A stretch of 64,000 nucleotides of DNA from Pseudomonadota bacterium (lineage in GTDB: Bacteria > Desulfobacterota > Desulfobulbia > Desulfobulbales > SURF-16), in contig JAHILF010000141.1 in assembly GCA_018897105.1 (NCBI GenBank), forward strand, positions 1-64,000, written 5' to 3'. The notes under the pieces were generated by a model. The model was not told the DNA's origin. It did no database searches and was given only the letters and a program-made list of their open reading frames with translations. The position numbers and the translations under genes were made by a program. Below are positions 4,815 through 12,357 of this stretch, in pieces (the stretch's first letter is position 1; every line of letters begins with the position of its first letter).

Positions 4815-5033
4815 AAAATGAAGGAGGGGGACAATTTTGTCGGAGGTGCCGTGGAAAAATGAGAATATTCCCGATGATGTCAGGATAATTCTGCTGGAGT
4901 ACGGCCAAAAAGAGGGAATATGCGCTTGAACATTGCGCAGATAGCGGGTATTTACTGCATAAATCTTTTGCGCAGTTGAGTATGTTTTTGCTGGAGTAAA
5001 GCTTATGCCTTGGCCATCGGGAGAAGAGTAAAC

Positions 5034-8000
5034 ATGGATAACCGATTTTTCGAAAAGCCTATTCTCAACTCCCCCTATGTCGATCCGGTCCGGCACTGGG
5101 AGCTTGATGATCAGGGCCAGCCGACGCAAAAGATTGTTGAGAACCGCCGGCCCGCCAAGTTTATCACCCCTATTCCCAAACCAAGAAAGCGGCAGGGCAA
5201 GGCGATCCAGCAAAGCCTTTTTGCCGTGCATGATTTGACATCCCAAACCCAGCAGTACGACCCCACCTCAATCATCAATGAACTTCGCAGGCATGTCGAC
5301 CAGTGGCGAAGCCGGCAGAACCCCGGTGACTGGCAGGTAACCCCTGAAACCGCTCGTCTGCTCCAGCACTGGCGGCACCACCGTTTCAGTTCAATAAGGC
5401 CGTTCTTCTGTCAGGTCGAGGCGGTTGAAACCGCCATCTGGTTGACCGAGGTGGCTCCAAAAATCGGCAAGGGCGGCACCCGTTTTATCGAGCACCTGGC
5501 CAGCGCCAACCATGATGCCAATCCCGAATTGCTGCGCTTGGCCCTGAAACTTGCCACCGGCGCGGGCAAAACCACGGTCATGGCCATGCTGATCGCCTGG
5601 CAGACCATCAACGCCGTGCGCCGCCCCGCCAGCAAAAAGTTCAGCCGCGGCTTTCTGATCGTCACCCCCGGCATTACCATCCGTGACCGTTTGCGCGTTT
5701 TGCAGCCCAATGATCCGGACAGCTATTACCAGAGCCGGGAGCTGATTCCCCACGATATGTTGGGAGATCTGGAGCGAGCCAAGATCGTCATCACCAACTA
5801 CCACGCCTTTAAGCTCCGGGAGCGGCTGGAGCTTTCCAAGGGAGGCAGACTGCTGCTGCAGGGGCGCGGCGGTGAAGAGTTGCACACCCTGGAAACCGAG
5901 GGGCAGATGCTCCAGCGGGTGATGCCGGACCTGATGGGCATGAAAAACATTATTGCCATCAATGACGAGGCCCATCACTGCTACCGGGAAAAGCCGGGTG
6001 ACGAGGAAGAGGAAAAGCTGAAAGGCGACGAACGCAAAGAGGCGGAAAAGAACAACGAGGCCGCCCGCCTCTGGATTTCCGGACTTGAAATCGTCAACCG
6101 CAAACTCGGCCTGAGTCGGGTCCTCGATCTTTCGGCCACCCCGTTTTTTCTCAGTGGCTCCGGTTATGCCGAGGGCACTCTCTTTCCCTGGACCATGAGT
6201 GATTTTTCCCTTATGGATGCCATCGAATGCGGCATTGTCAAACTGCCTCGGGTGCCGGTGGCCCAGAACCTGCCCGGCGATGAAATGCCCATGTTCCGCA
6301 ATCTCTGGGAGCATATTCGCAAGGATATGCCCAAAAAAGGGCGCGGCAAGGCGAAGGATCTTGATCCCCTCAGTTTGCCGGTCAGGTTGCAGACCGCTTT
6401 GGAAGCACTTTACGGTCATTACGAAAAAACCTTCCAGCTCTGGCAGCAGGAAGGAATTTCGGTGCCGCCCTGCTTCATCGTGGTCTGCCAGAATACCTCC
6501 ATCTCCAAGCTGGTGTATGACTTCATCTCCGGTTTCCATCGTAAGAATGAGGACGGCACCAGCACCCTGGAAAACGGCCGGCTGGCTCTGTTTCGCAACT
6601 TCGATGAACACGGCAACCAACTGGGGCGGCCCCGCACCCTGCTGATTGACAGCGAGCAGCTTGAATCAGGCGATGCTCTGGACAGCAATTTCCGCAAAAT
6701 GGCAGCCGATGAAATCGATCGCTTCCGGCGCGAGATCGTCGAGCGCACCGGTGACCTCCGTCAGGCCGAGAACCTTACCGATCAGGACCTGTTGCGCGAG
6801 GTCATGAACACCGTGGGCAAAGAGGGGCGCCTGGGTGAATCGATCCGCTGCGTGGTCTCGGTCTCCATGCTCACCGAGGGTTGGGACGCCAACACCGTTA
6901 CCCATGTCCTCGGGGTGCGCGCTTTCGGCACCCAGCTGCTCTGCGAGCAGGTCATCGGCCGGGCTCTGCGCCGTCAGTCCTATGACCTGAACGAGGAGGA
7001 TCTGTTCAATGTTGAATATGCCGATGTGCTGGGCATTCCCTTTGACTTCACCGCCAAGCCGGTGGTGGCCCCTCCCCAGCCGCCCCGGGAAACGGTGCAG
7101 GTCAAGGCGGTGCGCCCGGATCGCGACCACCTGGAAATCCGTTTCCCCCGGGTGGCAGGCTACCGGGTGGAACTGCCGGAAGAAAGGCTGACCGCCGAGT
7201 TCAACGACGATTCCGTGCTGGAGCTTTCTCCGGATATTGTTGGTCCTTCCATCACCATGAATGCCGGTATTATCGGCGAGGCGGTCGATCTGAGCCTGAA
7301 GCATCTCGAAGATATGCGCCGTTCCACCCTGCTGTTTCATCTCACCCAGCGTTTGCTTTATACCAAATGGCGCGACCCCGGCGAGGAACCCAAACTTCAC
7401 CTCTTCGGCCAGTTGAAACGAATCACCAAACAGTGGCTCGATACCTGTCTGGTCTGCAAGGGGAGTACCTATCCGGCCCAGCTCATGTATCAGGAACTGG
7501 CGGACATGGCCTGCGAGCGCATCACCGCTGCCATCACCAGGGCGGAACAAGGCAACCGGCCCATCAAGGCGGTACTCGATCCCTACAACCCGGTCGGTTC
7601 CACCAGCCACGTCAACTTCAACACCTCCAAGAAAGACCGCTGGCAGACCGATGCCCGTTTTTGTCACGTTAACTGGGTGGTGCTGGACAGCGGCTGGGAG
7701 GCGGAATTCTGCCGGGTGGCCGAATCCCACGCCAAGGTCAAGGCCTACGTCAAGAACCACAACCTCGGGCTGGAAGTGCCGTACCGCTATGGCTCGGAGA
7801 CGCGTACCTACATTCCTGATTTCATTGTAATGGTGGACGATGGACAGGGCGATGATGACCCTCTCCACCTCATCGTTGAGATCAAGGGCTACCGCCGTGA
7901 GGACGCCAAGGAAAAGAAGTCCACCATGGAAACCTACTGGGTGCCGGGGGTAAACAACCTGGAGCACTATGGTAGGTGGGCCTTTGCCGAGTTCACCGAG

Positions 8001-8093
8001 GTCTACCGGATTGAGACGGATTTCGAGGCCAGGGTGGAGGAACGGTTCAATCAAATAATTGCGGAAAGGGTAAAGAGTGAAGGTAGTTTATGA
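5034..8093 (+). CDS. Type III restriction enzyme, Res subunit (DEAD/DEAH helicase-nuclease)
   Basis: ALKLATGAGKTTVMAMLIAWQ (Walker A), NDEAHHCY, DLSATPFF, SMLTEGWDANTVTHVLGVRAF, QVIGRALRR. Confidence 0.9.
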   Translation: MDNRFFEKPILNSPYVDPVRHWELDDQGQPTQKIVENRRPAKFITPIPKPRKRQGKAIQQSLFAVHDLTSQTQQYDPTSIINELRRHVDQWRSRQNPGDWQVTPETARLLQHWRHHRFSSIRPFFCQVEAVETAIWLTEVAPKIGKGGTRFIEHLASANHDANPELLRLALKLATGAGKTTVMAMLIAWQTINAVRRPASKKFSRGFLIVTPGITIRDRLRVLQPNDPDSYYQSRELIPHDMLGDLERAKIVITNYHAFKLRERLELSKGGRLLLQGRGGEELHTLETEGQMLQRVMPDLMGMKNIIAINDEAHHCYREKPGDEEEEKLKGDERKEAEKNNEAARLWISGLEIVNRKLGLSRVLDLSATPFFLSGSGYAEGTLFPWTMSDFSLMDAIECGIVKLPRVPVAQNLPGDEMPMFRNLWEHIRKDMPKKGRGKAKDLDPLSLPVRLQTALEALYGHYEKTFQLWQQEGISVPPCFIVVCQNTSISKLVYDFISGFHRKNEDGTSTLENGRLALFRNFDEHGNQLGRPRTLLIDSEQLESGDALDSNFRKMAADEIDRFRREIVERTGDLRQAENLTDQDLLREVMNTVGKEGRLGESIRCVVSVSMLTEGWDANTVTHVLGVRAFGTQLLCEQVIGRALRRQSYDLNEEDLFNVEYADVLGIPFDFTAKPVVAPPQPPRETVQVKAVRPDRDHLEIRFPRVAGYRVELPEERLTAEFNDDSVLELSPDIVGPSITMNAGIIGEAVDLSLKHLEDMRRSTLLFHLTQRLLYTKWRDPGEEPKLHLFGQLKRITKQWLDTCLVCKGSTYPAQLMYQELADMACERITAAITRAEQGNRPIKAVLDPYNPVGSTSHVNFNTSKKDRWQTDARFCHVNWVVLDSGWEAEFCRVAESHAKVKAYVKNHNLGLEVPYRYGSETRTYIPDFIVMVDDGQGDDDPLHLIVEIKGYRREDAKEKKSTMETYWVPGVNNLEHYGRWAFAEFTEVYRIETDFEARVEERFNQIIAERVKSEGSL

Positions 8094-8938
8094 GCAATAT
8101 CAAGATATTTGAATCCAAAAAAATTCGATCCATTTGGAACGAGACGGATCATCTGTGGTATTTTTCCGTCATCGATGTGGTTGCGGTGTTAACCGACAGT
8201 CCGAATCCAAAAGACTATTGGTACCGTATCAAGCAACGGGAGAAGATCAGCGGCCTTGAACTGTCGACAATCTGTCGACGGTTCAAACTCGAAGCACCGG
8301 ATGGCAAGTTGCGTGAAACCGACTGCTCGCATGCTGAAGGGCTGCTGCGCATCATCCAGTCCATCCCCTCGCCCAAGGCCGAGCCCTTTAAGCTCTGGCT
8401 GGCCCGAGTCGGCTATGAGCGGCTGGAGGAAATCGAAAACCCGGAGCTGGCCGCCAAACGCATGCGGGAGTTGTACAAGGCCAAAGGCTACAGCGACGAA
8501 TGGATTGAAAAACGGGTGCGCGGCATTGCCATCCGGGACGAACTGACCAACGAGTGGCAGAAGCGCGGGGTGAAGGAGCAAAGAGAATACGCCATTCTCA
8601 CCGCCGAGATCAGCCGTGCCACTTTCGGCATGACGCCTGCGGAGTACAAGGCGTTCAAGAGTCTGGAAAAACCAGCGGACAACCTGCGTGACCACATGAC
8701 AGATCTGGAGCTGATTTTCACCATGTTGGGCGAGGCCTCCACCACCGAGATCGCCCGCAATAAGGATGCCCAGGGCTATGGCGAGAATCGGGGCGCGGCC
8801 ATCGAAGGGGGTACGGTTGCCGGCAATGCCCGCCGGGACTTGGAGAAGAAATCAGGCAAACGGGTGTCGAGCCGGGAGAATTTCAAGGAGCTTCCAGAAG
8901 CGGTTAAGAGGGAGAAAATTGTGAAGAGTGAAGAGTAA
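8090..8938 (+). CDS. BRO-N / DinD-like (phage antirepressor-type N-terminus) protein
   Basis: IRSIWNETDHLWYFSVIDVVAVLTDSPNPKDYWYRIKQRE is a Bro-N signature; overlaps the res stop. Confidence 0.75.
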   Translation: MSNIKIFESKKIRSIWNETDHLWYFSVIDVVAVLTDSPNPKDYWYRIKQREKISGLELSTICRRFKLEAPDGKLRETDCSHAEGLLRIIQSIPSPKAEPFKLWLARVGYERLEEIENPELAAKRMRELYKAKGYSDEWIEKRVRGIAIRDELTNEWQKRGVKEQREYAILTAEISRATFGMTPAEYKAFKSLEKPADNLRDHMTDLELIFTMLGEASTTEIARNKDAQGYGENRGAAIEGGTVAGNARRDLEKKSGKRVSSRENFKELPEAVKREKIVKSEE

Positions 8939-8954
8939 AGAGTAAAGAGTGAAA
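8921..8954. repeat. gtgaagagtgaagagtaaagagtaaagagtgaaa repeat, left arm flanking the four-helix-bundle ORF
   Basis: Related in inverted orientation to aacttcactcttcaccctt at about 9349-9367 and to the arms of the two elements inside mod. Confidence 0.7.
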
Positions 8955-9343
8955 TGTCAGAGCCGAGGAGAGACTTGCCGGAGCGTACGTTTGCGTTTGC
9001 CTGCCGGGTAGTGAAATTGTGCCAGGTGCTTGAACAGGTGCCTGGGGTAAGCCGTACGTTGGCCAACCAGCTCTTAAGGGCCGGGACATCAATCGGCGCC
9101 AACGTCGAAGAGGGGCAAGGCAGCCAGAGCAAGGCGGACTTTATCGCCAAATACTCCATTGCCTGTAAGGAAGCCCGTGAAACCAATTACTGGCTTCGGT
9201 TGCTGGTAGCGACAGAAATTGTAATCGACCTCAAGTTGAAGGACTTGGTTGATGAATCGAATCAGCTTATCGCCATCCTGACATCGATCATCAAGACAGC
9301 CAGAAAAAACCCGGGAAATGCCCCACGTGAGGAGAAAAGGTAA
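8954..9343 (+). CDS. Four helix bundle protein (23S rRNA intervening-sequence protein family)
   Basis: LPERTFAFACRVVKLC...RTLANQLLRAGTSIGANVEEGQGSQSKADFIAKYSIACKEARETNYWLRLL is a family signature. Confidence 0.9.
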   Translation: MSEPRRDLPERTFAFACRVVKLCQVLEQVPGVSRTLANQLLRAGTSIGANVEEGQGSQSKADFIAKYSIACKEARETNYWLRLLVATEIVIDLKLKDLVDESNQLIAILTSIIKTARKNPGNAPREEKR

Positions 9344-9388
9344 TTTCGAACTTCACTCTTCACCCTTTTTGCGACAAGGAACAACAAC

Positions 9389-10276
9389 ATGACCATGAAG
9401 AAGATAGATAGCAAAACCGTGGAAACATTGACCCACGCTGAAGCGAGTCGCAAAAATATCCCCACCGCCGAGCATCAGTCGATCATGCACGAGGCCGAAA
9501 AGAGTTCGGTGCGGGTGGCCTACGAGCGGCGCAACCGCGATCTGGACCCGCAGCTGGTCTGGCGCGGCAAGGACGAGCAGGACTGGTCCGACCTGGTGGT
9601 CCAGGCCCCGCCCCTCTATATCCAGGAAAAAGTCCATCCCAAGGTCTTGATCGACGATCTGCTGCGGCAGACCAGGGTGCAGGAGGAAAGCGGCAAGGCC
9701 CGGCAACTCGATCTCTTTGCCGATTTCAACGGCCTGCCCAGCGAGAGCGCCAGGACCGAATTTTACCAGCACGACGCCCACTGGGCCAACCGCATGATCC
9801 TGGGCGACAGCCTGCAGGTCATGGCAAGTCTTACCGAACGTGAGGGGCTGCGCGGCAAGGTGCAGTGCATCTATTTCGACCCGCCCTACGGCATCAAGTT
9901 CAACTCCAACTTCCAGTGGTCCACCACCAGCCGCGACGTCAAGGACGGCAATGCCGGCCACATCACCCGCGAGCCGGAGCAGGTCAAGGCCTTCCGGGAT
10001 ACCTGGCGGGACGGGATTCACTCCTATCTGACCTATCTGCGGGACCGGCTGACCGTGGCCCGTGATCTGCTGACGGATTCAGGGTCGATTTTTGTGCAGA
10101 TTGGGGATGAGAATGTGCACAGGGTGCGGGCGCTGATGGATGAGGTGTTTGGGGATAGTAACAACATTTCAAGTATCCACTATCTAACGCCGCTGTTGAG
10201 CCTCAACAGCGGCGATAAGCTCGTCCGCGTCAGCGGGCGAGCTTATCAACTAGTAGTCAGACTGCCCAGCATTTAG
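9389..10276 (+). CDS. Type III DNA methyltransferase (Mod), N-terminal part; ORF disrupted by a 59-nt insertion
   Basis: Contains YFDPPYGIKFNSNFQW (DPPY N6-adenine MTase). Reading frame is lost shortly after the insert at 10188-10246. Confidence 0.9.
   Translation: MTMKKIDSKTVETLTHAEASRKNIPTAEHQSIMHEAEKSSVRVAYERRNRDLDPQLVWRGKDEQDWSDLVVQAPPLYIQEKVHPKVLIDDLLRQTRVQEESGKARQLDLFADFNGLPSESARTEFYQHDAHWANRMILGDSLQVMASLTEREGLRGKVQCIYFDPPYGIKFNSNFQWSTTSRDVKDGNAGHITREPEQVKAFRDTWRDGIHSYLTYLRDRLTVARDLLTDSGSIFVQIGDENVHRVRALMDEVFGDSNNISSIHYLTPLLSLNSGDKLVRVSGRAYQLVVRLPSI
10188..10246. repeat. 59-nt double-hairpin insertion inside mod
   Basis: Hairpin 1 has arms 10188-10200/10202-10214 (13 bp). Hairpin 2 has arms 10215-10228/10233-10246 (14 bp including one G-U). 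Removal joins IHYLT to TSSQTAQHLAGIGDTILWYAKN in frame. Confidence 0.85.
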
Positions 10277-10338
10277 CAGGGATCGGTGACACCATCCTCT
10301 GGTATGCGAAAAACAAGAATAGTCTGAAGTTTAGAAAA

Positions 10339-12357
10339 ATGTATAAAGCAAAAGAGGATGAGTCCGGGCAGTACCGATGGGCACAAGACGAGGCCATGAG
10401 AATGAAGAATTATGAGGAAGGCCTATCACGGAATTTCCGGAGATTCAGATACGATCAATTCACATCCCAAACAGGCGGTGCATCGACAACTTTTGAGATA
10501 AAACATCATGGGAAGAGATTTTTTCCAAGTAAAGGGGGGTGGAAAACCAACACTTCAGGTGCATTTAGGCTTGTGAAAGCAGATCGATTATATGGTGTTG
10601 GTAAGACTCTTTCCTACAAGCGTTTCTTCGACGACTTTGCTTCTGTTGCGGTTGATAGTTTATGGACTGATACCCGCATTAGTGGGTTTAGCGACCCTAA
10701 GTTCTATGTAGTTCAAACTGGCGTTAGCGTAATTCAACGCTGCATCCTCATGGCCACCGACCCCGGCGATCTCGTCCTGGACCCCACCTGCGGTTCCGGC
10801 ACCACCGCCTATGTGGCCGAGCAGTGGGGCCGCCGCTGGATCACCATCGACACCTCACGGGTCGCCCTGGCCCTGGCCCGGGCCAGGATCATGGGCGCCC
10901 GCTACTCCTATTACCTGCTGGCCGACTCCAGGGACGGGCAGGAGAAGGAAGCAGAAATCACCCGCACCGTGCCATCGAGCCAGCCCAGCCGGGGCGATAT
11001 CCGCCAGGGTTTTGTCTATGAACGGGTGCCGCACATCACCCTGAAATCCATCGCCAACAACAGCGAAATCGACGTCATCTGGGAAAAATTCCAGGAAAAA
11101 CTCGAGCCTTTACGCCTGCGGCTGAATAGTGAAGTGGGAAGGGTGAAGGGTGAAATGAAAGACAAGGAGGGGCAATCGACTAAATTTCCCTCTTCACCCT
11201 TCCCTCTTCAAACTTCTCTCGCCGAATGGGAGATACCACGCGAGTTCCCCTCGAATTGGCCAATCGAAGCCAAACCACTTCACGAACAGTTCTGGTCGGA
11301 GAGAGTCGCCCGGCAAAAGGCGATCGACGCCTCTATTGGTGCCAAGGCCGAGTTTGAATACCTCTATGACAAACCCTATGAGGACAGGAAAAAGGTGCGG
11401 GTGGCTGGTCCCTTCACCGTTGAGAGCCTGTCGCCGCACCGGGTGCTGGCCGTCGGCGCTGATGACGAGTTGCTCGACACCACGATGGAGCCCAAAGGGA
11501 GCTACGGCGAGGAGCGGGATTTTACCGCCATGATCCTGGAAAACCTGAAAACTGCCGGGGTTCAGCAGGCCCATAAGGAAGACAAGATCACCTTCACCTC
11601 GCTGACCCCCTGGCCCGGCGATCTGGTCTGCGCCGAAGGACGATACGAGGAGAAGAGTGAAGTGGGAAGAGTGAAGAGTGAAAAAAAAGAGGGTGGATCT
11701 GCCGACTTTCATTCTTCACCCTTCACTCTTCAAACTTCAGAAAAGCGCGCAGCGATTTTCGTAGGCCCCGAGTTCGGCACCGTCTCCCGTCCCGATCTGG
11801 TGCAGGCGGCCCGCGAGGCCGGTGATGCCGGGTTTGATGTGCTCATTGCCTGCGCCTTCAACTACGATGCCCACTCCTCCGAGTTCGACAAACTCGGCCG
11901 CATCCCGGTGCTCAAAGCCCGGATGAACGCCGACCTGCACATGGCCGATGACCTCAAGAACACCGGCAAGGGCAATCTCTTTGTCATCTTCGGCGAACCG
12001 GATATCGATATCATCAAGGCAGCGGATGACCAGATCCAGGTCAAGGTCAACGGCGTGGACGTCTTTGACCCCAACTCCGGCGAGGTCAGGAGCGATTCCG
12101 CCGAAGGCATAGCCTGCTGGTTCATCGATACCGACTATAATGAAGAAAGCTTTTTTGTCCGCCACGCCTACTTCCTGGGGTCGGGCGATCCCTACAAGGC
12201 GCTCAAAACCACCCTCAAGGCGGAGATCAACGAAGAAGCCTGGGCAACGCTGAACAGCGACACCTCCCGCCCTTTCGATAAGCCCGAGACCGGGCGGATT
12301 GCGGTCAAGGTGATCAACCACCTGGGCGATGAGGTGATGAAGGTGTTTCGGGTATGA
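10339..12357 (+). CDS. Type III DNA methyltransferase (Mod), C-terminal part
   Basis: DLVLDPTCGSGTTAYVAEQWGRRWITIDTSRVALALARARIMGARYSYYLLADS, and EKRAAIFVGPEFGTVSRPDLVQAAREA. The in-frame continuation starts around 10249 after the insert. Confidence 0.9.
   Translation: MYKAKEDESGQYRWAQDEAMRMKNYEEGLSRNFRRFRYDQFTSQTGGASTTFEIKHHGKRFFPSKGGWKTNTSGAFRLVKADRLYGVGKTLSYKRFFDDFASVAVDSLWTDTRISGFSDPKFYVVQTGVSVIQRCILMATDPGDLVLDPTCGSGTTAYVAEQWGRRWITIDTSRVALALARARIMGARYSYYLLADSRDGQEKEAEITRTVPSSQPSRGDIRQGFVYERVPHITLKSIANNSEIDVIWEKFQEKLEPLRLRLNSEVGRVKGEMKDKEGQSTKFPSSPFPLQTSLAEWEIPREFPSNWPIEAKPLHEQFWSERVARQKAIDASIGAKAEFEYLYDKPYEDRKKVRVAGPFTVESLSPHRVLAVGADDELLDTTMEPKGSYGEERDFTAMILENLKTAGVQQAHKEDKITFTSLTPWPGDLVCAEGRYEEKSEVGRVKSEKKEGGSADFHSSPFTLQTSEKRAAIFVGPEFGTVSRPDLVQAAREAGDAGFDVLIACAFNYDAHSSEFDKLGRIPVLKARMNADLHMADDLKNTGKGNLFVIFGEPDIDIIKAADDQIQVKVNGVDVFDPNSGEVRSDSAEGIACWFIDTDYNEESFFVRHAYFLGSGDPYKALKTTLKAEINEEAWATLNSDTSRPFDKPETGRIAVKVINHLGDEVMKVFRV
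11128..11215. repeat. In-frame palindromic element B in mod (encodes SEVGRVKGEMKDKEGQSTKFPSSPFPLQTS)
   Basis: gaagtgggaagggtgaagggtgaaa ... tttccctcttcacccttccctcttcaaacttc; imperfect inverted arms. Confidence 0.8.
11656..11740. repeat. In-frame palindromic element C in mod (encodes SEVGRVKSEKKEGGSADFHSSPFTLQTS)
   Basis: gtgaagtgggaagagtgaagagtgaaa ... ttcattcttcacccttcactcttcaaacttcag; homologous to element B. Confidence 0.8.

Follow-up and report, generated by a model that had tools for sequence, protein, structure and literature searches.

The window, a stretch of 64,000 nt read on its forward strand, contains a type III restriction-modification locus in which the methylase gene is interrupted. 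The Res subunit was encoded by an intact ORF on the plus strand (5010–8093, matching ResIII and RE_endonuc), as the first-pass annotation had maintained. Downstream, mod was split into an N-terminal part with the DPPY motif (9389–10276, plus strand), which reached a stop just past an insertion of 59 nt, and a C-terminal part with a DPTCGSGT motif (10339–12357, plus strand). The Pfam profile N6_N4_Mtase was shared out accordingly, with profile positions 1–78 in the first ORF and 141–217 in the second; the predicted outcome is a frameshift that parts the two methylase motifs and leaves Res open. The region between res and mod (8090–8938 and 8954–9343) encoded a Bro-N protein and a 23S rRNA intervening-sequence (four-helix) protein. 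A second repeat, GTGAAGAGTGAA with its variants, was found 13 times in the window against 0.3 expected, always within 8070–11733 and often as facing copies; its sites (8921–8953, 9352–9363, 11143–11197 and 11650–11733) lay around mod, in two places inside its open frame, and it was unrelated to the cassette described below.

The insert occupied 10188–10246, or equally 10189–10247, and comprised two adjoining hairpins: the first (10188–10214) had a stem of 13 bp, designated P1, with a loop of 1 nt judged by eye, while the second (10215–10246) had 14 bp, including one G-U pair, and a GTCA loop. Sequence and ORFs bore out the coordinates, both stems and the frame ending at 10276 as first reported. 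Folded as single-stranded DNA, the insert lay 8.7 standard deviations below its shuffles (z = -8.7), and none of 200 shuffles was equally stable. Deletion of the 59 nt in silico fused the frame from 9389 with the downstream Mod ORF through ...YLTTSSQTAQHLAGIGDTILWYAK (...YLTTSSQ...), and the spacing from DEVFG to SSQ or SGQ was unchanged in Mod homologues (L095, IIPFVTTSSQTSELL; also L060, L063 and L069). Since the homologues had the spacing of the joined frame, the site formerly read TATCTAACAACTAGT and gained exactly 59 nt net. The earlier proposal that exact removal restores Mod was upheld. The AAC repeat said to flank the insert was present, but it already existed in the ancestral AACAAC and was not a target-site duplication; a 62-nt insertion with AAC as its duplication was ruled out because the homologues require 59 nt. 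Complementation of the interrupted Mod, also suggested at first, was not evident, the closest Mod paralogue giving a 59-aa match at 44%.

The insert was not a solitary event, an eventuality that the first-pass annotation had allowed for. Nine short units of 59 or 62 nt ('minis', the mod copy included) were found in the same genome, together with at least five copies of a longer 'parent' of ~186 nt with identical ends; the longer copies lay mostly at contig ends, as repeats do. The parent was assembled from the overlap of contigs C59 and C68, and consisted of arms CGCCGCTGTTGAG and CTCAACAGCGGCG around ~125 nt and, after these, the second hairpin. These arms, which form P1, enclosed a P2/P3 domain that was reduced to one base in the mod insert. 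The loops of the minis were C, A or TTTA; C and TTTA would be the expected remnants of deletion between direct repeats (CTC..CTC or GAG..GAG), and the A loop may be one substitution from the C form. Minis were found in this genome alone although one relative had six full copies, a slight argument that the mini itself has spread. Removal of the insert in silico also joined a PQQ-like repeat ORF (L013) and a 152-codon ORF starting MKLPEYIT (L014, MKLPEYITADEV), in both cases without duplication, and a DSDGDG-repeat protein was interrupted by a full-length copy, again without duplication, when the left part on C30 was joined to the right part on C68, a pairing deduced from the reading frame. The mini at L011 (around 1001–1065) was flanked on its two sides by ATCGCGCAACATAA in inverted orientation, which may be a lone attC or some other repeat. 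In two other genomes (L132, G215:C4; L135, G051:C85) different deletion derivatives of the parent had lost P2 wholly or largely and kept P3, leaving one long palindrome.

These copies bear upon the idea of a reversible on/off switch, or a translational bypass, for Mod. Precision of the insertion and the open Res frame would suit such a device; however, the unit occurred at no fewer than eight further unrelated sites, dispersed in genes and intergenic regions without coding logic and in lengths not divisible by three, no feature suggestive of inversion or slippage came to light, and nothing tied the element to mod genes elsewhere. No evidence for a switch or bypass emerged, and this explanation is considered extremely improbable.

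Integron integrases (TIGR02249) adjoined the element in G000 (C151), G018 (C83), G122, G156 (C144), G220 (C24) and G240 (C43 and C119), and in several integrons the parent filled the first-cassette slot at the exact attI crossover. With slashes at the boundaries, a filled site upstream of intI read ...ACACTG/ATAAG...GGCG/TTATGC followed by a gene, or in short ACACTG/element/TTATGC, while the empty site upstream of intI in some relatives read ...GTCTAATACACTG^TT.. and continued into ordinary cassette sequence (ACACTG^TTATG). Filled sites were found at L169, L170 (in the same genome as mod), L176 and L180, and empty sites at L168, L171, L172, L174 and L185; the left half, ACACTG, was common to all. 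The orientation of the parent at attI was the same in each case, and the gene of the next cassette started directly behind it. By a simple pattern, an attI-like end preceded 14 of 28 full copies, and an attC-like palindrome, recognized by eye, preceded several others. One array (G018, C83) contained two copies among ordinary cassettes whose attC sites looked canonical by eye. Full-length IntI was present in 28 of 35 element-bearing genomes and in 117 of 226 others (Fisher P = 0.0012, not corrected for relatedness); the seven carriers in which it was not found were mostly drafts, and the genome studied here had three full-length IntI genes. In G122 (C1), a complete genome, a 92-aa ORF corresponding to the C-terminal part of an integron integrase occurred at more than 10 loci (e.g., 212530, 637240, 876055, 1229200 and 1798773), and the element recurred at several attI-like sites; these look like multiplied relic integrons.

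Among 261 genomes of the class, 35, from 18 of 69 genera, had the P1–P3 domain according to a covariance model, as had five further genomes of the same phylum outside the order. The parent fold was a three-way junction, in which 20 pairs changed on both sides and P2 contained conserved unpaired bases; the covariation signal was abolished by sliding or shuffling the partners. The second hairpin also showed compensated variation, its GATA..TATC base remaining constant. Such a structure, lying directly upstream of the first cassette gene, could mean that the full element acts chiefly through RNA, as a structured RNA gene or a regulatory leader carried as cassette cargo, with the inner fold serving RNA rather than recombination, and gene-less cassettes of Vibrio do show promoter activity (PMC11014356). 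Yet covariation would be produced by a single-stranded DNA substrate as well, the minis are widespread without the domain, and a simple scan of the element returned no sigma-70-like promoter or terminator. No Rfam family matched at its gathering score, and membership of a known structured-RNA family was rejected on this ground. A mainly RNA role is rather unlikely, though its chance is not negligible. Plasmid sequences gave no match to the parent.

At the far end of the element, read in array orientation, the crossover bases were GTT in 31 of 37 junctions and GAT in two, and the majority sequence, GTTAGGC, matched the R box GTTRRRY; at the other end, T or C preceded the crossover G in 35 of 37, the G itself having belonged to the search pattern. 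Copies outside integrons, including that in mod, had the same two end points and an abutting GWT or GTTRRRY-like box, and showed no duplication where this could be checked. The crossover bases at mini sites were GTT (six), GAT (two) and GGT (one), and all nine minis faced the same way with respect to the target box. In mod, the insert, oriented by copies adjoining IntI, lay on the minus strand and read G/ATAAGCTCGCC...CAGCGGC/GTTAG; its target box, GTTAGAT (10182–10188, minus strand), sits at the G^TT crossover and fits GTTRRRY, a consensus taken from the 37 junctions and from PMC12901181. The best reading of this box, judged from its bases, is a secondary, attG-like site. The more stable fold was that of the bottom strand in array orientation for 24 of 26 full copies, the bias that attC sites should show.

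A mini mobile element of IS200/IS605 or REP-like class had also been among the first proposals for the hairpins. The type of element was right, but the class was not supported: none of the six Y1 transposase loci in the genome had a copy nearby, and the parents sit at the attI crossover. IS200/IS605 derivatives (PATEs) and REP derivatives were rejected accordingly, as was a MITE of a DDE transposon, for want of a target-site duplication. Early ideas of a retron, omega RNA or group IIC-attC intron were dropped because no RT or nuclease ORF was noticed beside the loci read and the element occupied the IntI crossover. IS1111-attC elements and group IIC-attC introns target attI and attC core sites, and an independent single-stranded DNA transposon of IS200/IS605, REP/RAYT or IS91 type might likewise do so with its own enzyme in trans. 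Hairpins at both ends and the lack of duplication are compatible with this, as are an attC-like stem without extrahelical bases and a left flank, TAAC or TATC, resembling the element's own TATC end. Apart from the vacant Y1 loci, it is opposed by the absence of any ORF-bearing version among the loci read and by insertion precisely at the IntI crossover, both in attI and following attC-like ends, which IntI explains directly. Such a transposon is improbable.

Given the attI-crossover position and the GTTRRRY-like flanks, a gene-less integron cassette is the best reading of the element, and the mod insert is probably a minimal, internally deleted copy of one. IntI-mediated mobility appears the most economical account, the boundaries, orientation and targets all being cassette-like. 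IntI would excise the parent as a circle and recombine it into attI, into attC ends and, off target, into attG genomic sites. The 59- and 62-nt minis could have arisen when P2/P3 was deleted between the 3-base direct repeats at the base of the folded structure, and would then have moved as such, or been shortened after insertion. Excision by the integrase might conceivably remove the insert.

The chief difficulty concerns attC. Canonical attC sites, ordered R''-L''-L'-R' on the folded bottom strand, have an unpaired central spacer and, in the R-L stem, extrahelical bases, which IntI recognises (PMC3053210, PMC12901181), whereas the arms here were a perfect palindrome of ~19 bp that lacked both. 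The second hairpin of the insert consisted of GATAAGC..GCTTATC plus a boundary C/G and may represent R'/R''-like boxes at the cassette start and attC, although these R-like boxes have GAT in place of GTT. It is thus by its position and boundaries that the element counts as a cassette, and its attC-like site is non-canonical. A perfect palindrome would be expected to deprive the minis of polarity, and yet all nine share an orientation. In the parent, the conserved unpaired bases of P2 might replace extrahelical bases; minis lack P2 but are polar, which leaves two options: that they are what remains of shortened parents, or that IntI reads cues so far undescribed. A bolder proposal, held tentatively and at somewhat less than even chance, is a selfish 'integron MITE': a perfect palindrome of 59–62 nt without extrahelical bases, accepted as a cassette by the host IntI and spread over the chromosome at attG-like sites, having derived from a conserved, structured gene-less cassette kept as an attI parasite or regulator.

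No description of the conserved cassette or its dispersed mini form was found in the literature searched, subscription papers being largely outside its scope. The element shares features with several known systems. It is like MITEs, REP/REPIN and IS200/IS605 PATEs in being short, hairpin-ended, non-coding and multi-copy, with some copies in genes and with minis that are internal deletions of a longer parent; unlike these, it has no target duplication and no related transposase that could be found, and its target is integron-linked. It resembles CALIN or lone attC sites in comprising attC-like units without an integrase alongside, but here these are isolated single copies at unrelated loci with a non-canonical attC. 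Gene-less cassettes are established, 29 being known in Vibrionaceae superintegrons (PMC11014356), and these likewise lack an ORF, stand at attI or within an array and are bounded by IntI crossovers. In contrast to them, one conserved, branched and covarying structure recurs in 18 genera of the class, its attC-like arms pair perfectly, and copies are dispersed outside arrays. Such conserved non-canonical arms make it possible to test directly which features of attC IntI really needs and whether a gene-less cassette can behave selfishly. Off-target cassette insertion is likewise established (PMC10127599), as are attG sites (Loot et al. 2024, as cited in PMC12901181 and PMC12444791). The secondary and attG insertions (Recchia and Hall 1995; Segal and Elisha 1997; Loot et al. 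2024 Nat Microbiol, as described in citing papers) also place one cassette outside an integron, at a G^TT-type site and without duplication; the present case differs from these accounts in the natural dispersal of one tiny unit to many sites in one genome, with several genes interrupted. Evidence for off-target genomic insertion of integron cassettes has come chiefly from experiments and from individual plasmid cases, and the element offers a clear natural case of cassette scatter, in which one tiny cassette has spread through a chromosome and broken genes, among them a restriction-modification methylase.
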